In this document: one piece after another, positions 6,190 through 18,073 of the stretch
Layout: the number at the start of each line of letters is the position of its first letter
How positions within the stretch are numbered: position 1 is the first letter of the stretch
IMG/VR virus record: IMGVR_UViG_3300035698_010760
Coordinates: 1-20,740 of that record
Reading direction: 5' to 3' (one strand)
Length of the DNA stretch: 20,740 nucleotides
From: a virus
Position numbers and translations under genes: made by a program
The notes under the pieces: generated by a model
Told to the model about the DNA's origin: nothing
What the model saw: the letters and a program-made list of their open reading frames with translations, nothing else
Database searches by the model: none

Positions 6190-6321
6190 ATGACTTTCAA
6201 ACGAACTGGATCATCGAGAATCCTCGACGAGCTGAAACGGTGCTACCCTCATTTCGCGCAAGGCGGAACCTTTTATGGCGGCTCGTCGAGGACTTTCGGT
6301 GATTTAGGGGATCTCACATGA
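6190..6321 (+). CDS. Small 43-residue protein or leader peptide of the initiator
   Basis: ATG at 6190 follows AAAAGGA (6176-6181) with eight bases of spacing, and the frame ends in a TGA that overlaps the initiator's ATG (ATGA at 6318). The product is basic with a Gly/Ser-rich tail and matches no family I know. Coupling to the initiator start suggests either a small protein or a leader whose translation sets initiator expression. The two 12-base inverted-repeat arms lie inside it. Confidence 0.55.
   Translation: MTFKRTGSSRILDELKRCYPHFAQGGTFYGGSSRTFGDLGDLT
6221..6292. repeat. Perfect 12-base inverted repeat of CTCGWCGAG sites
   Basis: TCCTCGACGAGC (6221-6232) and GCTCGTCGAGGA (6281-6292) are exact reverse complements separated by 48 bases. 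Each arm also holds its own small palindrome (CTCGACGAG and CTCGTCGAG). It could be a pair of protein-binding sites or a long RNA stem just ahead of the initiator's ribosome site. Confidence 0.75.
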
Positions 6322-7424
6322 CTCACGGCCAACCGACGAACCAGCCCTGCTACTTCTCTATTCTGCCCGCTAACGTGCGATACGACACCGAAGTGTCTGC
6401 CAGTGCCAAACTCCTCTTCTCGGAGATTACTGCACTGAGCAACGTCCACGGGTACTGCTGGGCGACGAACGCCTACTTCTGCAAGCTGTACGGGGTGCGG
6501 TCCTACACTGTGACACGGTGGCTGAAGCTCTTGTCGTCGCGTGGTTATATTCGCGTTGCGGTGGACAGGGGCAAGGAGGGTACGGCGAGAACTATCGAGC
6601 CATTGCTGGATGCGAAAGGCAACACCGAATGTGAGGGGGGGATAACAAAAATGTTAGGAGGGGGGGTAACAAAAATGTTACCCCCTCTTAGTAATAGTAC
6701 AAGAAAAGAACAAGAAGACAAAAAAACTAAAGCAAAAAAAGCCAAACCCTCCTTCCGTCAAGAAATACAGAACACCTCCCCGAGAAGAAAACAAGAGGAA
6801 CAGATTGTTCGCCGGATAGTACAGAAGTGGAACCGTCTCGCAAAGACCACAGGACTTCCCGCCACCCGCACGAATGACCGGCTACACGCGAAGATCATGG
6901 CGCGGTGGAAAGACTTCCCCTCCCCGACCTACTGGAAGAAGCTGCTCGAACGAGTTGAACACTCTCCGCACCTGCACGGTGCGAGCTGGTTTTCGTTGCA
7001 CTGGATCATCAAGAACACGGAGAACACTGAGAAGGTGGCCCGTGGCTGGATGGACTGGAAGAAAGAGAAGCCAGGGAAAACCGCGGACCAACCGGGGCAG
7101 AGCGAGAAGGTGACCAAGATCATCGGCGGCATTAAACAGGACCCGGACATCGGGGGGCTGATCCCGGACGAGATCGTGTGTGCTGCTGTGCTCAATTTGG
7201 AGAGCTGGTATGTGTCAATTTCAGACCTCGACCGTTCCCGGCTATATGCTGCACTGAATCCGCTATCAAAGGAATACGTTCGGTTCCTGCTCAAGAACGA
7301 AAGCTGGGTAGATAACTGGGGCACGAAGATCGTCGGACCGACTGGGATTCTGTGGAAGCGGTTCCTCGAACACCAGACCAAGTCATGCAGCCACACTTTT
7401 ACAGACGGACGGGAGCTGGGATAA
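6318..7424 (+). CDS. Replication initiator / helicase-loader-like protein with N-terminal winged helix
   Basis: 368 residues. The N-terminus (about 8-90) reads YFSILPANVRYD, SASAKLLFSEITALS, CWATNAYFCKLYGV, TVTRWLKLL, RGYI: a winged-helix domain found in lambda O/DnaD-like phage replication initiators. A lysine-rich linker (about 125-165) follows, then an alpha-helical domain ending about 240 and a further C-terminal region that I do not recognise. It sits immediately before the replicative helicase, as O precedes P or DnaC-type genes in other phages. The gene contains an iteron-like repeat followed by an A-rich tract (6633-6760), as the lambda origin does within gene O. AGGGGAT stands before the ATG. 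Specific biochemical role is inferred. Confidence 0.75.
   Translation: MTHGQPTNQPCYFSILPANVRYDTEVSASAKLLFSEITALSNVHGYCWATNAYFCKLYGVRSYTVTRWLKLLSSRGYIRVAVDRGKEGTARTIEPLLDAKGNTECEGGITKMLGGGVTKMLPPLSNSTRKEQEDKKTKAKKAKPSFRQEIQNTSPRRKQEEQIVRRIVQKWNRLAKTTGLPATRTNDRLHAKIMARWKDFPSPTYWKKLLERVEHSPHLHGASWFSLHWIIKNTENTEKVARGWMDWKKEKPGKTADQPGQSEKVTKIIGGIKQDPDIGGLIPDEIVCAAVLNLESWYVSISDLDRSRLYAALNPLSKEYVRFLLKNESWVDNWGTKIVGPTGILWKRFLEHQTKSCSHTFTDGRELG
6633..6760. other. Candidate replication origin (iterons, hairpin and A-rich tract inside initiator gene)
   Basis: Two tandem copies of about 24 bases lie here: seven Gs, then TAACAAAAATGTTA (palindromic cores at 6643-6656 and 6667-6680). The second copy is extended on its right by CCCCC, giving a perfect stem GGGGGTAACA / TGTTACCCCC with an AAAA loop (6662-6685). 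A purine-asymmetric A-rich stretch follows (6698-6752), suitable for unwinding. In protein terms the repeat is simply GGITKML/GGGVTKML in the linker. The iteron-then-AT-rich order inside the initiator gene mirrors the lambda origin. No other origin candidate is visible in the window. Confidence 0.6.
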
Positions 7425-10174: not shown

Positions 10175-10423
10175 ATGAAAGTACTCGCCATAGATTTCGA
10201 CGGAACGGCTACTGTGTGTGTGGAACGCGTGAACAAGCTGTATGAGGACCCGGAGAATCTCATCATCATCCACACAGCACGCAGTAGCCGTATCCGGGGA
10301 CGGACAGAGAGAGAGCTGGACGCCCTGGGCATCAGATACCACGCACTCGTGATGGACAAGCTGAGAGCGGACGTGTATATCGACAACAAGAATGCAGGAG
10401 GGTTATCGTGGGACCTACAATAG
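10175..10423 (+). CDS. Small HAD-superfamily phosphatase-like protein
   Basis: 82 residues starting MKVLAIDFDGTATV, which holds the HAD nucleophile motif DFDGT (7-11). IIIHTARSS follows at about 31-39 (motif II, Thr/Ser after a strand), and DVYIDNKN near residue 70 is the acidic motif IV. No cap domain is present, and the length is at the low end for the fold. Substrate cannot be read from the sequence; in this island a nucleotide or pterin phosphate is conceivable but unproven. ATG 10175 has better spacing to AAGGA than ATG 10169. Its end overlaps the first queC-like gene by 16 bases. Confidence 0.75.
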   Translation: MKVLAIDFDGTATVCVERVNKLYEDPENLIIIHTARSSRIRGRTERELDALGIRYHALVMDKLRADVYIDNKNAGGLSWDLQ

Positions 10424-11139
10424 TCAATCTCTTCAGCGGCGGGATGGACAGCGTGGCAACGGCCATGGTTTTCCCTTGCGACCTCCTGTTGCACATCCAG
10501 ATTGGAACCACGGACAACGTCTGGGAGACGGAGAGGGTCCGGGGGATTGCCAAGAGCCTGGGACGACCGCTCGAGATCGTTTCCCTCGACCTGAGCCGCT
10601 GGGAACTACCGAACAAGATCATCCCGTTTCGCAACCACATGCTTGTCCTCACCGCAGCACAGTACGGGAACACGATCCACATGGGGGCAACGGCCGGGGA
10701 CACGACACGCGACAAAGACTTTCACTTCGTCTCAGACATGGAACAGGCCCTCAACTATTTTGGCAGCGGACCGACAGAGAAGCGTCCTCCACACGGGGAG
10801 CCGGACTACCATGTATCGCTTCCGTTCAGGACGAGGACCAAAGGGGAGATTGCGCAGATCGTCGACCGGGACACGGAATACTCGGCCCTGGAACTCCTGT
10901 CCTGGAGCCGGAGCTGCTACGAAGGGGCACAGGATAAGGAATGCGGGCAGTGTCGGGCCTGCTTACGGAAGTACGTGGCTATGAGAGCCGTGCTGGGACA
11001 TCATCACGTCGCAGATCACTTTCAGAATGACCCTCGTTCCTTCCTTCCCCAGATGATCGAAGAGTCGGAGAGGAAGGGCCGTTGTGGCAGAGAGATCACG
11101 GAACTGAAGTTGGCGGCCGAGGGAGCAGCTGCAAAATGA
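10408..11139 (+). CDS. queC: QueC-like 7-cyano-7-deazaguanine synthase family protein, copy 1
   Basis: 243 residues from a GTG start with AGGAGGG six bases upstream. QueC converts 7-carboxy-7-deazaguanine to the amide and then to preQ0 using ATP and ammonia. The PP-loop is LFSGGMDS (8-15). IIPFRNHMLVLTAA (71-84) corresponds to the QueC V-P-x-R-N segment, and a zinc site CYEGAQDKECGQCRACLRK has C170, C179, C182 and C185. The third and fourth core segments are diverged from bacterial QueC (GDTTRDKDFHF). Its stop shares ATGA with the second paralog. It could make preQ0, stop at the amide, or amidate another 7-deazaguanine. Confidence 0.85.
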   Translation: MGPTIVNLFSGGMDSVATAMVFPCDLLLHIQIGTTDNVWETERVRGIAKSLGRPLEIVSLDLSRWELPNKIIPFRNHMLVLTAAQYGNTIHMGATAGDTTRDKDFHFVSDMEQALNYFGSGPTEKRPPHGEPDYHVSLPFRTRTKGEIAQIVDRDTEYSALELLSWSRSCYEGAQDKECGQCRACLRKYVAMRAVLGHHHVADHFQNDPRSFLPQMIEESERKGRCGREITELKLAAEGAAAK

Positions 11140-11813
11140 TCAGAAGAGCAATATTAGCAACCGGGGGCATCGACAGTACGGTGCTGATATATAAGGAGAC
11201 AGCCGAGAGGAGGCGGGTGGATGTCATCACTGTGGACTATGGACACATAGCAGCAAAAAAGCAGGTTGAATTGCTTCAGTGGCACTGTTCTCATCTGGGT
11301 CTGAAGGAGCCGACAGTGCTCCACTTTCGTTTCCCTCCGCCCCTGTGTGAGACAGGGCTTTTCGAAGAAGGGGGAACAAGCAAAGATCCCGACCCCCTTG
11401 GGAACTGGAACGAGGTTCGGTATGGTGACTTCTTCATAGAAAGCCGGAACGGGGTTATGGTGCTTCTCGCCATGGGGTTGTGCAGCGTCTCCCGTATCGA
11501 CGAGCTTTTGGCCGGGTATCTCATGAGCGAAAAGGAATGGGAACAGATATGGAGTTATCGTCTGTCCCGCCAAGATAATACCCCGTCCTTCGTGGATGCC
11601 ATTAACACCCTCACCCAACATGGTCTCCGCCATCCCACACGTTTGCGGGCTCCATATCTGGAAGAAAGAATGGACAAGAACGCAGTGATCGAACTGGGAA
11701 AATCTTTGGGGGTCCCATTCGACAAGACCTACAGCTGCTACTTCGTTCCCGAGTGTGGTGTTTGTGACAACTGTCTTCTGCGAAAGAAATATCTGTTAGG
11801 AGAAGAGAAGTGA
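11136..11813 (+). CDS. QueC-like protein, copy 2
   Basis: 225 residues, coupled to copy 1 by ATGA. The PP-loop is LATGGIDST (7-15), with Thr in place of the usual first Ser. [15 protein letters not shown] (99-113) matches the family's R-N segment and [12 protein letters not shown] (146-157) the DCRPEF-type segment. The zinc site is [13 protein letters not shown] (C201, C207, C210, C213). The overall plan is that of QueC, but identity to copy 1 is low apart from these motifs, so this is not a recent duplication. A split of labour is likely: one copy for preQ0 and the other for a different amidation. Which does which cannot be told here. Confidence 0.8.
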
Positions 11814-12715
11814 CAAGCAGGAAAGACTACTCGGCATCAGAATTCAAGCGGGACGTCGATGTCCTGTGCCTGACGATCAAAAGGGGAGGAGCCCACTATG
11901 AGGGTGTGTATGGCGTGCCAAGGGGCGGGTGTACTCTTGCCCTGGCTGTATCAGCTCGTCTGGAACTCCCTCTGTTCGACGACATCCCGGACGGCCCCCA
12001 CCCTTCCTTGATCCTAGTCGTGGACGATGTGGTGGATAGTGGGAAGACTCGAAAGCTGTACGGTGCCCACCCCTTCGCTTGCCTCCACAGGAAGAACACC
12101 GATGTCCCGTGCTACTTCGTCCACGACGAAGTGAAAGACTGGATCGTGTACTGGTGGGAGGGAAGTGAATCCGGCTCCATCCACGACACCGTCACCCGGC
12201 AACTGCAATTCCTCTGCGAGGACGTAGACCGGGAAGGGCTGAGAGGGACCCCGGAGAGAGTGGTCCGCAGCTGGAAAGAACTCTACGCCGGCTACCAAAT
12301 GAAGATTGAGGATCTGCTCACCGTATTCGACGACGACTCCTGCGACGAGATGGTCGTGCTCAAGGACATCGAGATGTTCAGCACCTGCGAACACCACCTC
12401 CTCCCGTTCTTCGGACGGGCTCATGTGGCCTACATCCCGAACGGCCGGGTTATCGGCGTATCGAAATTGGCCCGTATCGTCGAGATGTACGCCAGACGGC
12501 TCCAGATACAGGAAAGGATCGGAAAGCAGGTTACAGCAGCCCTCATGGCTCATCTGGACCCGTTGGGGGCTGCGTGTGTGATCGAAGCTCAGCATCTGTG
12601 TATGATGGCCCGCGGGGTCGGGAAACAGAACAGCACAATGGTGACGAGCAGCCTCGAAGGGGTATTCCGTTCGGACGACAAGAGCAGGGCAGAGCTGATG
12701 AGGCTGATAGGATGA
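11810..12715 (+). CDS. folE: Phosphoribosyltransferase-GTP cyclohydrolase I fusion
   Basis: 301 residues from a GTG start (AGGAG at 11798, GTGA overlap with the previous stop). Residues 1-117 are a type I phosphoribosyltransferase: VYGVPRGG (33-40) and the PRPP loop [12 protein letters not shown] (69-80), ending WIVYWWEG as in purine PRTases. Residues 120-301 are FolE, which turns GTP into dihydroneopterin triphosphate, the first step toward preQ0. [22 protein letters not shown] (zinc C193 with H195/H196), [17 protein letters not shown], and [10 protein letters not shown] (zinc C264) are all intact. The PRTase substrate is probably a purine base. Guanine released by the DNA transglycosylase is an attractive candidate. 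Confidence 0.9.
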
Positions 12716-12885
12716 AGATCTTTTTGGTGCATCCCTTACCATATGGGGAAGAAATGCAGAACCTGGAGGAGTCGAGCAACTGGCTGTATTCCTATTCTCG
12801 TTCCCTATTTGGAAAAGGGATAAACGACAAGTGCTGGGAGTTGCTTCGTCGTTACAATCAGGAAAGAAAAGAGAAAAAGAAATGA
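12712..12885 (+). CDS. Microprotein A of the MKxFxAG array
   Basis: 57 residues, starting in an ATGA overlap with folE and ending in an ATGA overlap with the next member. It starts MKIFLV and contains [20 protein letters not shown], ending in a Lys/Glu tail. The start motif and the R/W-L-x-S-Y segment recur in all following members, including the N-terminus of the transglycosylase. It shares INDKCW with member B. No catalytic motif is visible. The exact fit of both junctions supports real translation. Confidence 0.6.
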
Positions 12886-13065
12886 AGGTTTTCCTAGCCG
12901 GAAACACAGCTCTGGTAAGCAGAGAGAGAGAGATCTTCGACAAGAGTCGGGGACGCCTGTTCTCGTACCACCACTGCCTCCCCGGAGGGATAAACGACAA
13001 GTGCTGGAAGTTGGTCGTCGACATAACCCGGAGACAGAAGAATGAAGGTGTTCCTAGCCGGAGAC
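12817..13065 (+). repeat. Tandem DNA duplication within the microprotein array
   Basis: 12817-12905 and 12987-13065 share blocks: ATAAACGACAAGTGCTGG at 12820 and 12990, then AGAAATGAAGG/AGAATGAAGG, and TTCCTAGCCGGA. The pair covers the end of one microgene and the start of the next, about 165 bases apart, as expected if a whole unit was duplicated. Confidence 0.75.
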
Positions 13066-13154
13066 GCATACGGGAAAGAGAGAGAGAGAGAGTGGAATCA
13101 AGTAATCCGAAACAGGTTGGTTTCCTTCCACTTGATAAAGGACAAATGGCATGA
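12882..13154 (+). CDS. Microprotein B of the array, with read-on over C
   Basis: 90 residues. The first 50 or so are family-like: [32 protein letters not shown]. From about residue 55 the frame runs over member C in another phase, giving an Arg/Glu-rich tail, and stops in an ATGA overlap with member D. Compared with the A/B junction, the B/C junction lacks one A before the ATG, so B may have lost its original stop by a one-base deletion. The purine-rich end of A (GGAAAGAAAAGAG) could act as a weak ribosome site, and ATGA coupling would do the rest. Confidence 0.55.
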   Translation: MKVFLAGNTALVSREREIFDKSRGRLFSYHHCLPGGINDKCWKLVVDITRRQKNEGVPSRRRIRERERERVESSNPKQVGFLPLDKGQMA

Positions 13155-13197
13155 AGTGCTTCATGGCAGGAAAGAACGGAAACTTGACGTCCTATGA
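13042..13197 (+). CDS. Microprotein C of the array
   Basis: 51 residues. ATG 13042 has GGAG eight bases upstream (13030-13033). The product starts MKVFLAGDAYGKEREREW, where the GA tract encodes the ERERE run, then RLVSFHLIKDKWHEVL, aligning with RLFSYHHC-INDKCWKL of B. It lies inside the read-on part of B in a different frame and runs 47 bases into D. The family fit is better than for the overlapping tail of B, so C is the more credible product of this stretch. Confidence 0.55.
   Translation: MKVFLAGDAYGKEREREWNQVIRNRLVSFHLIKDKWHEVLHGRKERKLDVL
13077..13092 (+). repeat. (AG)8 dinucleotide tract
   Basis: Eight AG units in member C. Shorter tracts occur at corresponding places: (AG)6 at 12921-12932 in B, (AG)5 at 13256-13265 before dpdA, (AG)6 at 13400-13411 inside dpdA. 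All are translated as RERE-type peptides in at least one frame. Confidence 0.8.
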
Positions 13198-13300
13198 CGG
13201 TACTATGAGAAACAGGATGCTTAGTTTTGTGTCACCTTATCGTGAGCCAATACTAAGAGAGAGAGAAATACACAGCAATGAAGTGCTTCATGGCAGGAAA
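13151..13300 (+). repeat. 23-base direct repeat at the starts of D and dpdA
   Basis: 13151-13173 and 13278-13300 are identical and both encode MKCFMAG plus the next lysine or asparagine position. The spacing is 127 bases. The exact match shows a recent copy of the transglycosylase 5' end. Confidence 0.85.
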
Positions 13301-13429
13301 TTGTGGGGGCAACGTGAAACAGAACGACCCAAACATCACGACCGGCGTGAACCGGATGAGAAGTTTCATCGTATTGCGGACACAGGGGAAAAATCGTCAA
13401 GAGAGAGAGAGATACATGAAACCAGCTAA
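13151..13429 (+). CDS. Microprotein D of the array, overlapping the transglycosylase start
   Basis: 92 codons with AAAGGA eight bases before the ATG (13137-13142). The first 40 residues are family-like: MKCFMAGKNG and RMLSFVSPYRE. The rest passes in another frame over the first 150 bases of the transglycosylase gene and is highly charged, so the functional part is probably N-terminal. Its first 23 bases are identical to 13278-13300 at the start of the next gene. Translation of D would deliver ribosomes past the dpdA start, so it may serve as a coupling leader. Confidence 0.45.
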   Translation: MKCFMAGKNGNLTSYDGTMRNRMLSFVSPYREPILREREIHSNEVLHGRKLWGQRETERPKHHDRREPDEKFHRIADTGEKSSREREIHETS

Positions 13430-14306
13430 AGAACTCTTCGTGGACAGCGGGGCATACTCGGCCTGGAACCAGGGTGTCGAGATCAATATCCAAGAGTACA
13501 TCGCGTTCATCAAAGAACACGAAGACATGATCGACGTCTATGCAAATCTGGACGTGATCGGGGACGCCGAAGCAACTTGGAAGAATCAGCTCATCATGGA
13601 AAAGGCTGGACTCTCCCCTCTTCCCACCTATCACTACGGGGAGTCAATCGTGTTCCTCAGACGCTACCTCGACAGAGGACATGACTACATTGCGCTCGGA
13701 GGGACGGTGGGTGTCAGCAAGCAGATGGTGGTCTCGTGGTACGATAGAATATGGAAAGAGGACATCTGTGACAAAGACGGAATGCCGAAGGTCAAAGTCC
13801 ACGGATTCGGACTGACCACCATCCCCCTCATGCTTCGTTATCCGTGGTACAGTGTGGACAGCACGACTTGGGTGGTAGTGAGCCGGATGGGCGGAATCCT
13901 CGTTCCCAAACTCAACGAATCTGGGGACTGGGATTTCTGCAAAGTTCCGATGGTCGTCCCGGTCTCGAACAAGCCCAGTAAGAAGAGCCCACCGAAGAGA
14001 CACATCGGAACCCTCTCAACGGAGGTCCGCAAGATCGTGGACAGGTATGTGTCGGAGATGGAGTTCACCCTGGGGAAGAGCGATTTCCGATCAGTGCAAG
14101 ACGGATACGAGCTGAAGGAGGGGGAGCGGTGGACAGGGAAGAAGGCAGAGCTGGTCGTTGAAACCGTGCTCGAATCCGGTCTGGCAAACAGATATCAGGA
14201 CCGGGACATCCTGAACGTCCTCTACTTCGAGAACATGCAGGATCAGTGGAGGAAGTGGCCCTGGCCCTTCCGACCGAAGATCCAGACCCAGAGATTCCCG
14301 GTATGA
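13278..14306 (+). CDS. dpdA: DpdA-like DNA guanine transglycosylase (queuine tRNA-ribosyltransferase family)
   Basis: 342 residues. DpdA enzymes swap guanine in DNA for a 7-deazaguanine base, by analogy with tRNA-guanine transglycosylase. The TIM-barrel core starts at about 52: LFVDSGAYSAW (53-63, Asp56), VYANLDVIGD (87-96), YIALGGTVG (137-145), KVHGFGLTT (173-181), and WYSVDSTTWV (190-199, Asp194). The two aspartates fit the TGT catalytic pair. The first 46 residues (MKCFMAGN, RMRSFIVLR) form the N-terminal piece repeated in the microproteins. ATG 13278 has only a distant GAGAGAGAG; ATG 13416 (residue 47) has a GA tract four bases away and is a possible second start. Adjacent folE and queC genes support the assignment. 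Confidence 0.88.
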   Translation: MKCFMAGNCGGNVKQNDPNITTGVNRMRSFIVLRTQGKNRQERERYMKPAKELFVDSGAYSAWNQGVEINIQEYIAFIKEHEDMIDVYANLDVIGDAEATWKNQLIMEKAGLSPLPTYHYGESIVFLRRYLDRGHDYIALGGTVGVSKQMVVSWYDRIWKEDICDKDGMPKVKVHGFGLTTIPLMLRYPWYSVDSTTWVVVSRMGGILVPKLNESGDWDFCKVPMVVPVSNKPSKKSPPKRHIGTLSTEVRKIVDRYVSEMEFTLGKSDFRSVQDGYELKEGERWTGKKAELVVETVLESGLANRYQDRDILNVLYFENMQDQWRKWPWPFRPKIQTQRFPV

Positions 14307-14485
14307 AGATCTTCCCAGCATCAGGAGCACCAGGAAATGAGCCGGGACTGGAGCGAGAGGTGGTCCGGCGTCTCTTCTCTTATCATCATATAGCCGAGAA
14401 GATGTTCGGTTGTGATACCGCCTGGGATTGGTACAAAGAAAACAAAAGGAGCGAGCATGAAAATCAAGCGGACAGAGTTTCTTGA
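14303..14485 (+). CDS. Microprotein F of the array, downstream of dpdA
   Basis: 60 residues beginning in an ATGA overlap with dpdA: MKIFPASG, then LEREVVRRLFSYHHIAEKM and WDWYKENKRS. It keeps the MK-x-F start, the ERE run and RLFSYHH almost exactly as in member B, although it lies on the other side of dpdA. The end overlaps the sliding-clamp gene by 29 bases and its AAAAGGAG provides that gene's ribosome site. Role unknown. Confidence 0.6.
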   Translation: MKIFPASGAPGNEPGLEREVVRRLFSYHHIAEKMFGCDTAWDWYKENKRSEHENQADRVS

Positions 14486-15467: not shown

Positions 15468-16688
15468 ATGCAGCAGGGATCGTTCTTTAACACAAAAGAG
15501 ATCTCGGATCTGACGCAGAGCGGCATGGCCCGATGTGGATCGTGTGGCCTGTGGGCGGATTGTATCTCCCCACGGATGGGGGCAACCGGAGAAGGCAAGA
15601 AAGGAATACTGATAGTTGCAGAGGCGCCCGGACAGACTGAGGACAGACGGAACGAGCAGCTCGTCGGGGAAGCTGGTGCTGTCCTGCGAGCCAAGCTCAA
15701 AGAGCTCGGCGTTGACTTGGAGCAAGACTGCCGAAAAATCAACGCGGTGAACTGTCGGCCACCAAAGAACAGGACACCGACAGACGCGGAGATAACAGCC
15801 TGTCGACCGATGCTGTTCGACGAGATGAAGAGATGGGAACCAAAGCTGGTTCTGCTCCTTGGGAACTCTGCGATCCGGGCCTACCTCGGGCACAGGTGGC
15901 GGAAGCGGCTGGAAGGCGTCTCTCGGTGGCGAGGATACCTGATCCCGGATTGGGAGAACAGGTGCTATGTACTCGCGACCTACCACCCCTCGTTCCTGCT
16001 CAGGAGCAAGGGACGGAAGGAGCTAGATCTCGTTTGGGGCCAGGACATCGGAAAGGCCCTCGGTGCGCTGGCGAAAGCACCTCTCACGGACAGGACTTTC
16101 GAGGACAGAATCTGTACGGACTACGACACGGCCATGAACCACTGCAAAAGCATGTTCCAAGGTGACGACAAGACCCTCGTGGCGTTCGACTACGAGACAA
16201 GTGGACTGAAACCACACGCGAAGGGCCACAAGATCCGAACTGTATCGTTCGGCTGGGATGATGGGCAGGTGGACGCTTTCGAATTGGATCACGAGGCAAA
16301 ACGGATGCTGCTCCGGTTTTTGATGGAGTCCCGCTTCCGCAAAGTCGCGAGCAACATGGCCTTCGAGACCGCCTGGAGCTGGCACATCCTCGGAGTACCT
16401 GTCCGGGGGTGGGTGTGGGACACCATGCTCGCTGCCCACTGTCTTGACCAGCGGCCAAAGGTCACGAGCATCAAATTCCAAGCGGCTATCCGGTACGGAG
16501 TATTCGACTACGACAGCGAGATTGAGCCGTACCTGAAGGCAGACGGAAAGGACTCCAACGCAGTGAACCGAATTGACGAGGCTCCGCTCGACAAGCTCCT
16601 CTACTACAATGCGATGGACAGCCTGTTGGAATTTGACGTGGCGGTGGATCAGAGCAGAGAGATGGGGGTTGACCTATGGACACTGTAA
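15468..16688 (+). CDS. Uracil-DNA glycosylase (family 4) fused to 3'-5' exonuclease
   Basis: 406 residues, two domains. Residues 20-200 are a family 4 UDG: four Fe-S cysteines (C23, C26, C96, C112), motif EAPGQTED (52-59), LLLGNSA (129-135), and YHPS (172-175). Residues 235-400 are the DnaQ-type proofreading exonuclease of DNA polymerase I: FDYETSGLKP (ExoI, D241/E243), SNMAFE (ExoII, usual Asp replaced by Glu300), WDTM (D318) and YYNAMD (ExoIII, Y380/D384). The polymerase domain is the next gene, overlapping by 13 bases. The glycosylase may remove or sense uracil, as in polymerases of SPO1-type phages that carry a UDG-like domain. Confidence 0.9.
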   Translation: MQQGSFFNTKEISDLTQSGMARCGSCGLWADCISPRMGATGEGKKGILIVAEAPGQTEDRRNEQLVGEAGAVLRAKLKELGVDLEQDCRKINAVNCRPPKNRTPTDAEITACRPMLFDEMKRWEPKLVLLLGNSAIRAYLGHRWRKRLEGVSRWRGYLIPDWENRCYVLATYHPSFLLRSKGRKELDLVWGQDIGKALGALAKAPLTDRTFEDRICTDYDTAMNHCKSMFQGDDKTLVAFDYETSGLKPHAKGHKIRTVSFGWDDGQVDAFELDHEAKRMLLRFLMESRFRKVASNMAFETAWSWHILGVPVRGWVWDTMLAAHCLDQRPKVTSIKFQAAIRYGVFDYDSEIEPYLKADGKDSNAVNRIDEAPLDKLLYYNAMDSLLEFDVAVDQSREMGVDLWTL

Positions 16689-18073
16689 TGAAACCAAGCA
16701 CACCGGCAGCATACAGGCTTCTGCACGATGGGATGATGGCTCTGTCCTTCGCCGAGAGGGTCGGGATGCGGGTCGACGTTGAATACTGTGAGGAGATGCT
16801 TCGCGGACTGGACGCGAAGGAGAAAGCAAACGAGCAGGCAATCAGGGACACCCACCACGGGAAGATCTGGGCCGGGCAGTATGGCACCAAGACGAACATC
16901 GACAGCGACAAGCAACTGATCTGGCTCCTGTTCAAACGACTCGGGATCAAGCCAGAGAAGATGACGGCGGGGAACCAGCCCGCAACCGATGCGAACGCCT
17001 TGCGGAAAGTCGACTCGCCCCTCATCCCGCTACTCCTCGAACGTCGCAAAATTCAGAAGACGGGCGGCACCTACTTGAAGTCAATCCTGCGAGAGCAGGT
17101 GGACGGGGTTCTCCGTCCTCACTTCAACCTGCACCTAGCCCGGACGTTCCGGTCGTCTTCGAGCGATCCCAACTTTCAGAACATCCCTGTCCGAGACCCT
17201 GAGATGGGCAAGATCGTCAGGCGTGCTTTCCTTGCCAGTCCGGGTTGCCGATTCACGGAGCTGGACTACGGTGGACTGGAAGTCAGAATCGCCGCCTGCT
17301 ACCACAAGGACCCGACGATGGTGAAGTATCTGAAGACAGGGTACGACATGCACCAGGAGCAGGCGATGCGGTTATTCGTGCTCCCTCGGGAAGAGGTCTC
17401 GAAGATGACACGGTTCGCGGCGAAGAACGGGTTCGTGTTCGCAGAGTTCTACGGAGACTATTGGAGAGACTGCGCGCGCAGCCTGTGGAACATGATCGAC
17501 GATCTCAAGCTGGCAACAGTGACGCACAAGACCCCGCTGAAACGCTGGCTGCTCGCAAAGGGGATCACCCACCTCATTTCCCGTACCGAAGCAGGGGGCA
17601 AGCCGACGGACAGGGCTTCCTTCGAGCACCATGTCTTCACGGTCGAGCGTTACTTCTGGGACAGGACGTTCCCGGTCTACGACTCGTGGCGGACTGCTTG
17701 GTGGGAAGAGTACAGGAAGCAGGGCTGGTTCCAGATGAAAACGGGCTTCACCTGCCATGGCGTCTTCAAACGAAACGACGTGATAAACTACCCTGTGCAG
17801 GGGGCCGCGTTCCACAGGCTGCTCCGAGCATACATCGACCTGACCAAAGCGATGCTGAAAGCGAAGATGAAATCTCATCTGATTGGACAGATCCACGACT
17901 CGATCGTGGGTGATATCCGGGAGGAGGAGTTCGACGATTACCTGGCGATGGCCGAGAAGATCATGACGAAGAACCCGAAAGGCTGGGACTGGATCACTGT
18001 CCCACTGGAGATCGAAGCAGAAGCAAGCCCCGTGAACGGTAGCTGGCATGAGAAAAAGGAGGTAGGAAAGTGA
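16676..18073 (+). CDS. DNA polymerase I family, polymerase domain only
   Basis: 465 residues with palm, fingers and thumb of family A. Motif A is ELDYGGLEVRIAA (D197, E202); motif B is TRFAAKNGFVFAEFYG (R246, K250, YG 259-260); NYPVQGAA is at 371-378; motif C is QIHDSIVGD (H407, D408). Motif C has Ser409 where Glu is usual. No exonuclease domain is present; that activity is on the preceding protein. The start at 16676 has GGGGG about seven bases upstream; an in-frame ATG at 16688 forms TAATG with the previous stop and is also possible. The gene ends in GTGA with the next one. Confidence 0.93.
   Translation: MDTVMKPSTPAAYRLLHDGMMALSFAERVGMRVDVEYCEEMLRGLDAKEKANEQAIRDTHHGKIWAGQYGTKTNIDSDKQLIWLLFKRLGIKPEKMTAGNQPATDANALRKVDSPLIPLLLERRKIQKTGGTYLKSILREQVDGVLRPHFNLHLARTFRSSSSDPNFQNIPVRDPEMGKIVRRAFLASPGCRFTELDYGGLEVRIAACYHKDPTMVKYLKTGYDMHQEQAMRLFVLPREEVSKMTRFAAKNGFVFAEFYGDYWRDCARSLWNMIDDLKLATVTHKTPLKRWLLAKGITHLISRTEAGGKPTDRASFEHHVFTVERYFWDRTFPVYDSWRTAWWEEYRKQGWFQMKTGFTCHGVFKRNDVINYPVQGAAFHRLLRAYIDLTKAMLKAKMKSHLIGQIHDSIVGDIREEEFDDYLAMAEKIMTKNPKGWDWITVPLEIEAEASPVNGSWHEKKEVGK

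Follow-up and report, generated by a model that had tools for sequence, protein, structure and literature searches.

The window analysed here, a stretch of 20,740 nucleotides (20.7 kb) of viral DNA, carries a dpdA gene surrounded by five small ORFs whose products begin like DpdA itself. The locus raises the question of what these ORFs encode and what their products might do next to a DNA transglycosylase.

The dpdA Locus and Its Small ORFs

The dpdA gene of the window (13278..14306, + strand, as are the preQ0 pathway genes, small ORFs and GA tracts described below) codes for a 342-aa DNA 7-deazaguanine transglycosylase (phrog_887, E 4e-55) and is located between folE on one side and a DNA polymerase clamp gene on the other. 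Genes of the preQ0 pathway adjoin it, namely those of FolE, a GTP cyclohydrolase I (11810..12715; Pfam GTP_cyclohydroI, E 6e-68), and of two QueC-like ATPases (10408..11139 and 11136..11813), which form a tandem pair, both matching Pfam QueC (E 4e-14 and 3.4e-25, respectively). QueD and QueE were not identified within the window. The FolE protein has an N-terminal extension of ca. 120 aa that weakly matches phosphoribosyltransferases, and a protein encoded upstream of dpdA in another locus (L028, 1641-2495) has a similar N-terminal text.

The original prediction had placed five ORFs of 57, 90, 51, 92 and 60 residues around dpdA, and this observation is confirmed. Module A (57 aa, 12712..12885; ...WLYSYS...INDKCW) is followed by module B (90 aa, 12882..13154) and by module C (51 aa, 13042..13197; MKVFLAGDAYGKEREREWNQVIRNRLVSFHLIKDKW...), which lies inside B in a different frame. 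Module D (92 aa, 13151..13429; MKCFMAGKNGN...RMLSFVSPY...) begins with a stretch also found at the start of dpdA, and module F (60 aa, 14303..14485; MKIFPASGAPGNE...RRLFSYHHIAEK...), which belongs to the APGNE subfamily, lies beyond the end of dpdA. The tail of B runs through C in a different frame and terminates at the ATGA of D, whereas D overlaps dpdA by 152 nt and stops just beyond the internal ATG of the dpdA core. Such deep overlap of B, C and D in different frames is unusual. Our DpdA search of viral contigs retrieved no close relatives of the window in which frames B, C and D could be tested singly, and a DNA search in phages gave only scattered FolE and core matches.

As had been noticed earlier, most junctions in the array are ATGA overlaps; they are present at folE/A, A/B, B/D and dpdA/F. 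The common start MK[IVC]F[LMP][AV] and the [RW][LM]xS[FY] segment are found in all five ORFs and are also shared with DpdA. INDKCW is common to A and B, where it is part of a repeat identical at 27 of 28 nt, and RLFSYHH is common to B and F.

A leave-out profile HMM based on 130 modules from other phages, with the window excluded, was run on the six-frame translation of the window. Modules A, B, C, D and F were exactly the five top-ranked ORFs. Scores of 34.9, 32.5 and 32.4 bits were obtained for F, B and C, and of 6.9 and 5.3 bits for A and D. Among 50 windows shuffled with a Markov model, the highest score was 8.4 bits; F, B and C are thus far above the null, whereas neither A nor D is significant alone, and the assignment of these two, which leans on position and shared repeats, is weak. 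The best match of B was a module of L033 (E 8e-12) and that of F a module of L022 (44% over 52 aa), and C is 53% identical over 38 aa to the N-terminus of the fused DpdA of L068.

The Modules Correspond to the First Two Units of the DpdA Barrel

An AF2 model of the window DpdA, obtained with a 40-sequence alignment, had a pLDDT of 90.3 and a pTM of 0.88. DSSP assigned its barrel strands to residues 2-5, 26-29, 53-56, 87-89, 117-119, 137-141, 173-176 and 192-195, and the best Foldseek match in the PDB was archaeosine TGT (1iq8, E 3.7e-4). The window DpdA is thus predicted to be an eight-stranded, TGT-like TIM barrel. The catalytic aspartates D56 and D194, which belong to the motifs DSG[AG][FY] and SVDS, do not vary in alignments of 51 and 40 sequences.

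The counterpart of the small ORFs in this barrel is its first pair of beta-alpha units, made up of strand 1, the loop, strand 2 and helix 2. In DpdA, the fused N-terminal module with strand 1 (residues 2-5) and strand 2 (residues 26-29) is encoded by 13278..13415. The core with strands 3-8 follows at 13416..14306, and ATG 13416, which is preceded by a GA tract, may serve as its independent start. The catalytic motifs DSGAY (strand 3) and SVDS (strand 8) both lie outside the module. Stand-alone modules, which are ca. 60 aa long, have neither the catalytic residues nor a complete barrel, and the earlier statement that the catalytic part is missing from them holds.

Modelled in isolation with AF2, module F folded poorly (pLDDT 64), which counts against the module as a unit of its own. 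A profile search of the module against PDB sequences found no real relative, PHROGs, Pfam and NCBIfam assigned no family to modules, and no Pfam match to HsdS target recognition domains was found among 23 modules. Being outside these families, the small genes are probably unannotated or called "hypothetical" in most phage genomes.

Module Arrays Are Linked to dpdA in Other Phages

We scanned IMG/VR with a DpdA alignment and retrieved 80 loci (36-52% identity). Short ORFs of module form were present before and after dpdA in most of them; arrays of the kind noticed in the window are conserved in related phages. With the module HMM, 104 loci yielded 266 six-frame segments at E<=0.1, every one on the coding strand, and reversed sequences yielded none at E<=1. 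Module arrays were also found in MAG contigs labelled Pacearchaeota, Firmicutes, Syntrophaceae, Sulfuricurvum and Spirochaetes, on which the profile had not been trained. The modules fall into subfamilies, including ATWL, APGNE, GTPGIERE, NTPDR, MNVKGRERE and ADTxQR.

When viral contigs were scanned with the ATWL subfamily only, dpdA was found on the same strand within 6 kb at each of the 33 loci retrieved, eight of which had not been retrieved before. The first module 3' of dpdA overlaps the dpdA stop by ATGA in 32/71 loci (the window included) and starts within 30 nt in 47/71, and some stand-alone modules are located 1-2 kb from dpdA. In all 31 module pairs of usable divergence, dN/dS was below 1 (median 0.30; window modules B, C and D have no close relatives). 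Judging by these ratios, the modules are under purifying selection.

None of the 11 canonical single-chain DpdA proteins of cultured phages that we examined is accompanied by stand-alone modules. Edwardsiella phage ZHS, which has two modules of a divergent type, is the only such case among phage records, and a tblastn search with two module subfamilies against 50,697 phage records gave no match.

Locus L123 (1839-3430) encodes two DpdA-like proteins in tandem, each with a fused module. The DpdA cores of L139 (4007-5989) and L159 (432-2306) carry an in-frame intein-like insert between RYPWY and SVDST; it starts with CMTEE, ends with VTGN and is located at the catalytic aspartate motif.

Many DpdA Cores Are Split from the First Barrel Segment

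A core was called split when at most 30 open codons lay ahead of strand 3, so that strands 1 and 2 cannot belong to the same chain. The 85 non-redundant cores comprised 31 split, 35 fused and 19 unclear ones, several of the latter having strand 2 in frame but strand 1 out. An intact stand-alone module was present in the flank of 26 of the 31 split cores. Split cores L093 (with a refined profile) and L077 (elsewhere in the record) also had a module, in L091 and L100 the module was weak, and L086, a short fragment, had none. In the available sequence of L112, a split core in a MAG, no clear module was found.

On the core tree, the fused or split state changes 15 times, and at least six of these changes are forced by well supported branches. 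Of 25 fused environmental DpdA genes, 24 have an ATG no more than 20 codons ahead of the core, 13 of them with a Shine-Dalgarno-like site (such sites precede 12.7% of background ATGs).

The segment absent from split cores is the one that modules encode, which suggests that the barrel may be assembled in trans. Many phages carry a fused module plus stand-alone ones, so a role in trans is not obligatory.

Repeat Tracts and Frame Breaks in Modules

The four longest dinucleotide tracts of the window are all (GA)n and are all located in the array. Two of them lie between strands 1 and 2, in module B (12921..12933) and in module C (13077..13092), the third follows strand 2 of module D and precedes the dpdA start (13256..13266), and the fourth separates the fused module of dpdA from the core start (13400..13412). 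In all window modules, strands 1 and 2 currently share one frame. Compared with the rest of the same contigs, tract density in modules was 30 times higher for poly-G>=7, 120 times higher for poly-C>=7 and 36 times higher for (GA)>=4.

Modules with strands 1 and 2 in different frames were classified as frame-broken; the heuristic that we used returned 31, a few of them on weak profile scores, and contig errors at repeats could mimic some of the broken frames, yet cannot create the tracts. A strict tract was present between the strands in 23/31 broken modules versus 33/182 intact ones (Fisher 1.4e-9; 2e-8 without near-duplicates).

Four phages that are 90-92% identical in the dpdA core, L015, L016 and L079 among them, differ in tract length. 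Their poly-C module is intact at 8 C and broken at 7 or 9, and their poly-G module is intact at 9 G and broken at 8. We rejected the possibility that the dpdA-fused module of L079 is in frame; on translation, all four members of the group proved to have this module out of frame. The set of modules also differs between close relatives. RERE runs of modules used AGA in 40/45 and GAG in 35/44 cases versus 44/144 and 80/256 in the cores of the same phages, a skew that indicates that the DNA repeat itself is favoured.

Taken together, tract enrichment and tract-length frame changes in close relatives (four contigs) suggest that the modules are partly phase-variable, and we infer that switching may be reversible during growth. 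A rival reading that concerns only the phase variation holds that the GA tracts, instead of being switching repeats, are purine runs for ribosome binding or simply RERE codons. Some window tracts are indeed found 4-12 nt before a start codon, but most tracts occupy codons 11-17 of a module and are not followed by a start, poly-G and poly-C tracts behave alike and RERE codons are skewed to AGA/GAG, so we regard this reading as unlikely.

Possible Role of the Modules

We consider it fairly probable that the modules are an exchangeable, partly phase-variable first barrel segment, either fused or separate, of a modular DNA transglycosylase DpdA, and that they tune its target choice. The sequence data contribute to this proposal demonstrated module homology, dpdA linkage, split architecture, selection, repeat enrichment and repeat-associated frame breaks. 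The first two beta-alpha units of the TIM barrel would be available in interchangeable versions, one per small gene, and the conserved catalytic core (strands 3-8) would be made from its own start codon. One of several (beta-alpha)2 modules would either be fused in frame or complete the barrel as a separate small protein, and a phage with several modules could thereby produce several enzyme versions. Slipped-strand mispairing at mono- and dinucleotide repeats would put modules in or out of frame and change which of them are made; such slippage would explain why the module set varies between close relatives.

The modules may also determine or adjust the choice of DNA sequences for modification, since the loops that follow strands 1 and 2 are located on the active face of the barrel. 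This position and the parallel with exchangeable specificity subunits make DNA target choice the most likely function. A further-reaching scheme, in which one core is shared combinatorially by separate phase-variable segments, each with a different target, and the modification pattern of the population shifts against host restriction, is conceivable, and we advance it tentatively, as rather doubtful.

Another explanation is that the modules are a silent store of recombination donors, themselves inactive, that replace the fused N-terminus of dpdA by gene conversion. Fused N-termini of different phages do sit in different subfamilies common to stand-alone modules, that of L040 is 65% identical to a stand-alone module of L020, D and dpdA of the window have a start stretch in common and module content varies among close relatives, all of which gene conversion would account for. 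It appears improbable given purifying selection, start codons and ATGA coupling to dpdA, which point to expressed proteins, and the existence of cores without any fused module.

There is little likelihood, too, that modules are independent small proteins derived from the DpdA N-terminus, such as anti-restriction peptides, decoys or DpdA regulators, that do not complete the barrel. The linkage to dpdA at 33/33 loci of the module scan and the split cores that lack exactly the module-encoded segment speak against such proteins, although several modules per phage, beside a fused one at many loci, and the distance of 1-2 kb between some modules and dpdA would fit them.

Debris of repeated partial dpdA duplication, which could have left the 31 frame-broken copies and the short direct repeats of the window, is very improbable in view of the low median dN/dS, wide conservation, conserved slots with ATGA overlaps and concentration of frame breaks at repeat tracts, and because dpdA itself is in many phages without the segment that the small genes encode. 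Among the roles offered in the original prediction, the subunit-like one is thus supported, regulators and decoys come out as much less probable, and debris is disfavoured.

An exchangeable barrel segment, if it is what the modules are, would make DpdA a natural enzyme with a TIM barrel of interchangeable gene-encoded segments, and the arrays a repeat-based switching system for DNA modification in phages. It would offer a direct handle on how the sequences for 7-deazaguanine insertion are chosen, a route by which phages could vary their protection from restriction, and a natural model of barrel assembly.

Comparison with Known Systems

Split or fragment-complemented TIM barrels are likewise assembled from separate segments; the segment described here is a natural quarter of the barrel that exists in many variants. 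To our knowledge, split TIM barrels have been studied as engineered fragments or in connection with half-barrel evolution.

Phage DpdA proteins such as that of Enterobacteria phage 9g (Hutinet 2019, PMC6884629) resemble the one of the window in core sequence, catalytic motifs (DSG[AG][FY] and SVDS) and TIM barrel, and their loci resemble it in preQ0 neighbours and in gene order before the clamp and polymerase. The known phage DpdA is, however, one fused chain with no stand-alone N-terminal modules, whereas the loci described here have several separate modules, many of them out of frame. The shuffling of HsdS subunits of Type I restriction-modification systems is similar in that one catalytic core is served by several exchangeable small parts, but there is no sequence relation, and the module belongs to the catalytic barrel, whereas HsdS is a DNA-recognition subunit of known fold. 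Phase-variable mod genes and other contingency loci of bacteria likewise have homopolymer or dinucleotide coding repeats that break the frame; they involve one methyltransferase gene, in contrast to the many short paralogous modules found here in phages.

The terms "N-terminal" and "split" are absent from Hutinet 2019 (PMC6884629), the only DpdA paper covered by a term search. Titles and opening lines of abstracts of the literature on DpdA, 7-deazaguanine and phage, which leave most subscription papers and preprints uncovered, mention no such arrays, and those that pair phase variation with 7-deazaguanine or phage-encoded genes contain no such report. The core is a DpdA, and we take the module arrays to be new, though an earlier description is possible. 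Three points, the defined structural unit (barrel strands 1-2), the frequent split of the enzyme and the slippery tracts in modules, go beyond what had been predicted for the window.

Other Features of the Window

Two observations concern genes of the window outside the array. A family A polymerase is apparently split into two ORFs (15468-16688 and 16676-18073), the first of which combines a uracil-DNA glycosylase domain with a 3'-5' exonuclease domain. ORF 6318-7424 contains two 7-G tracts (6635-6641 and 6660-6666), 18 nt apart, in a GGxTKML repeat, which is possibly another switching site.
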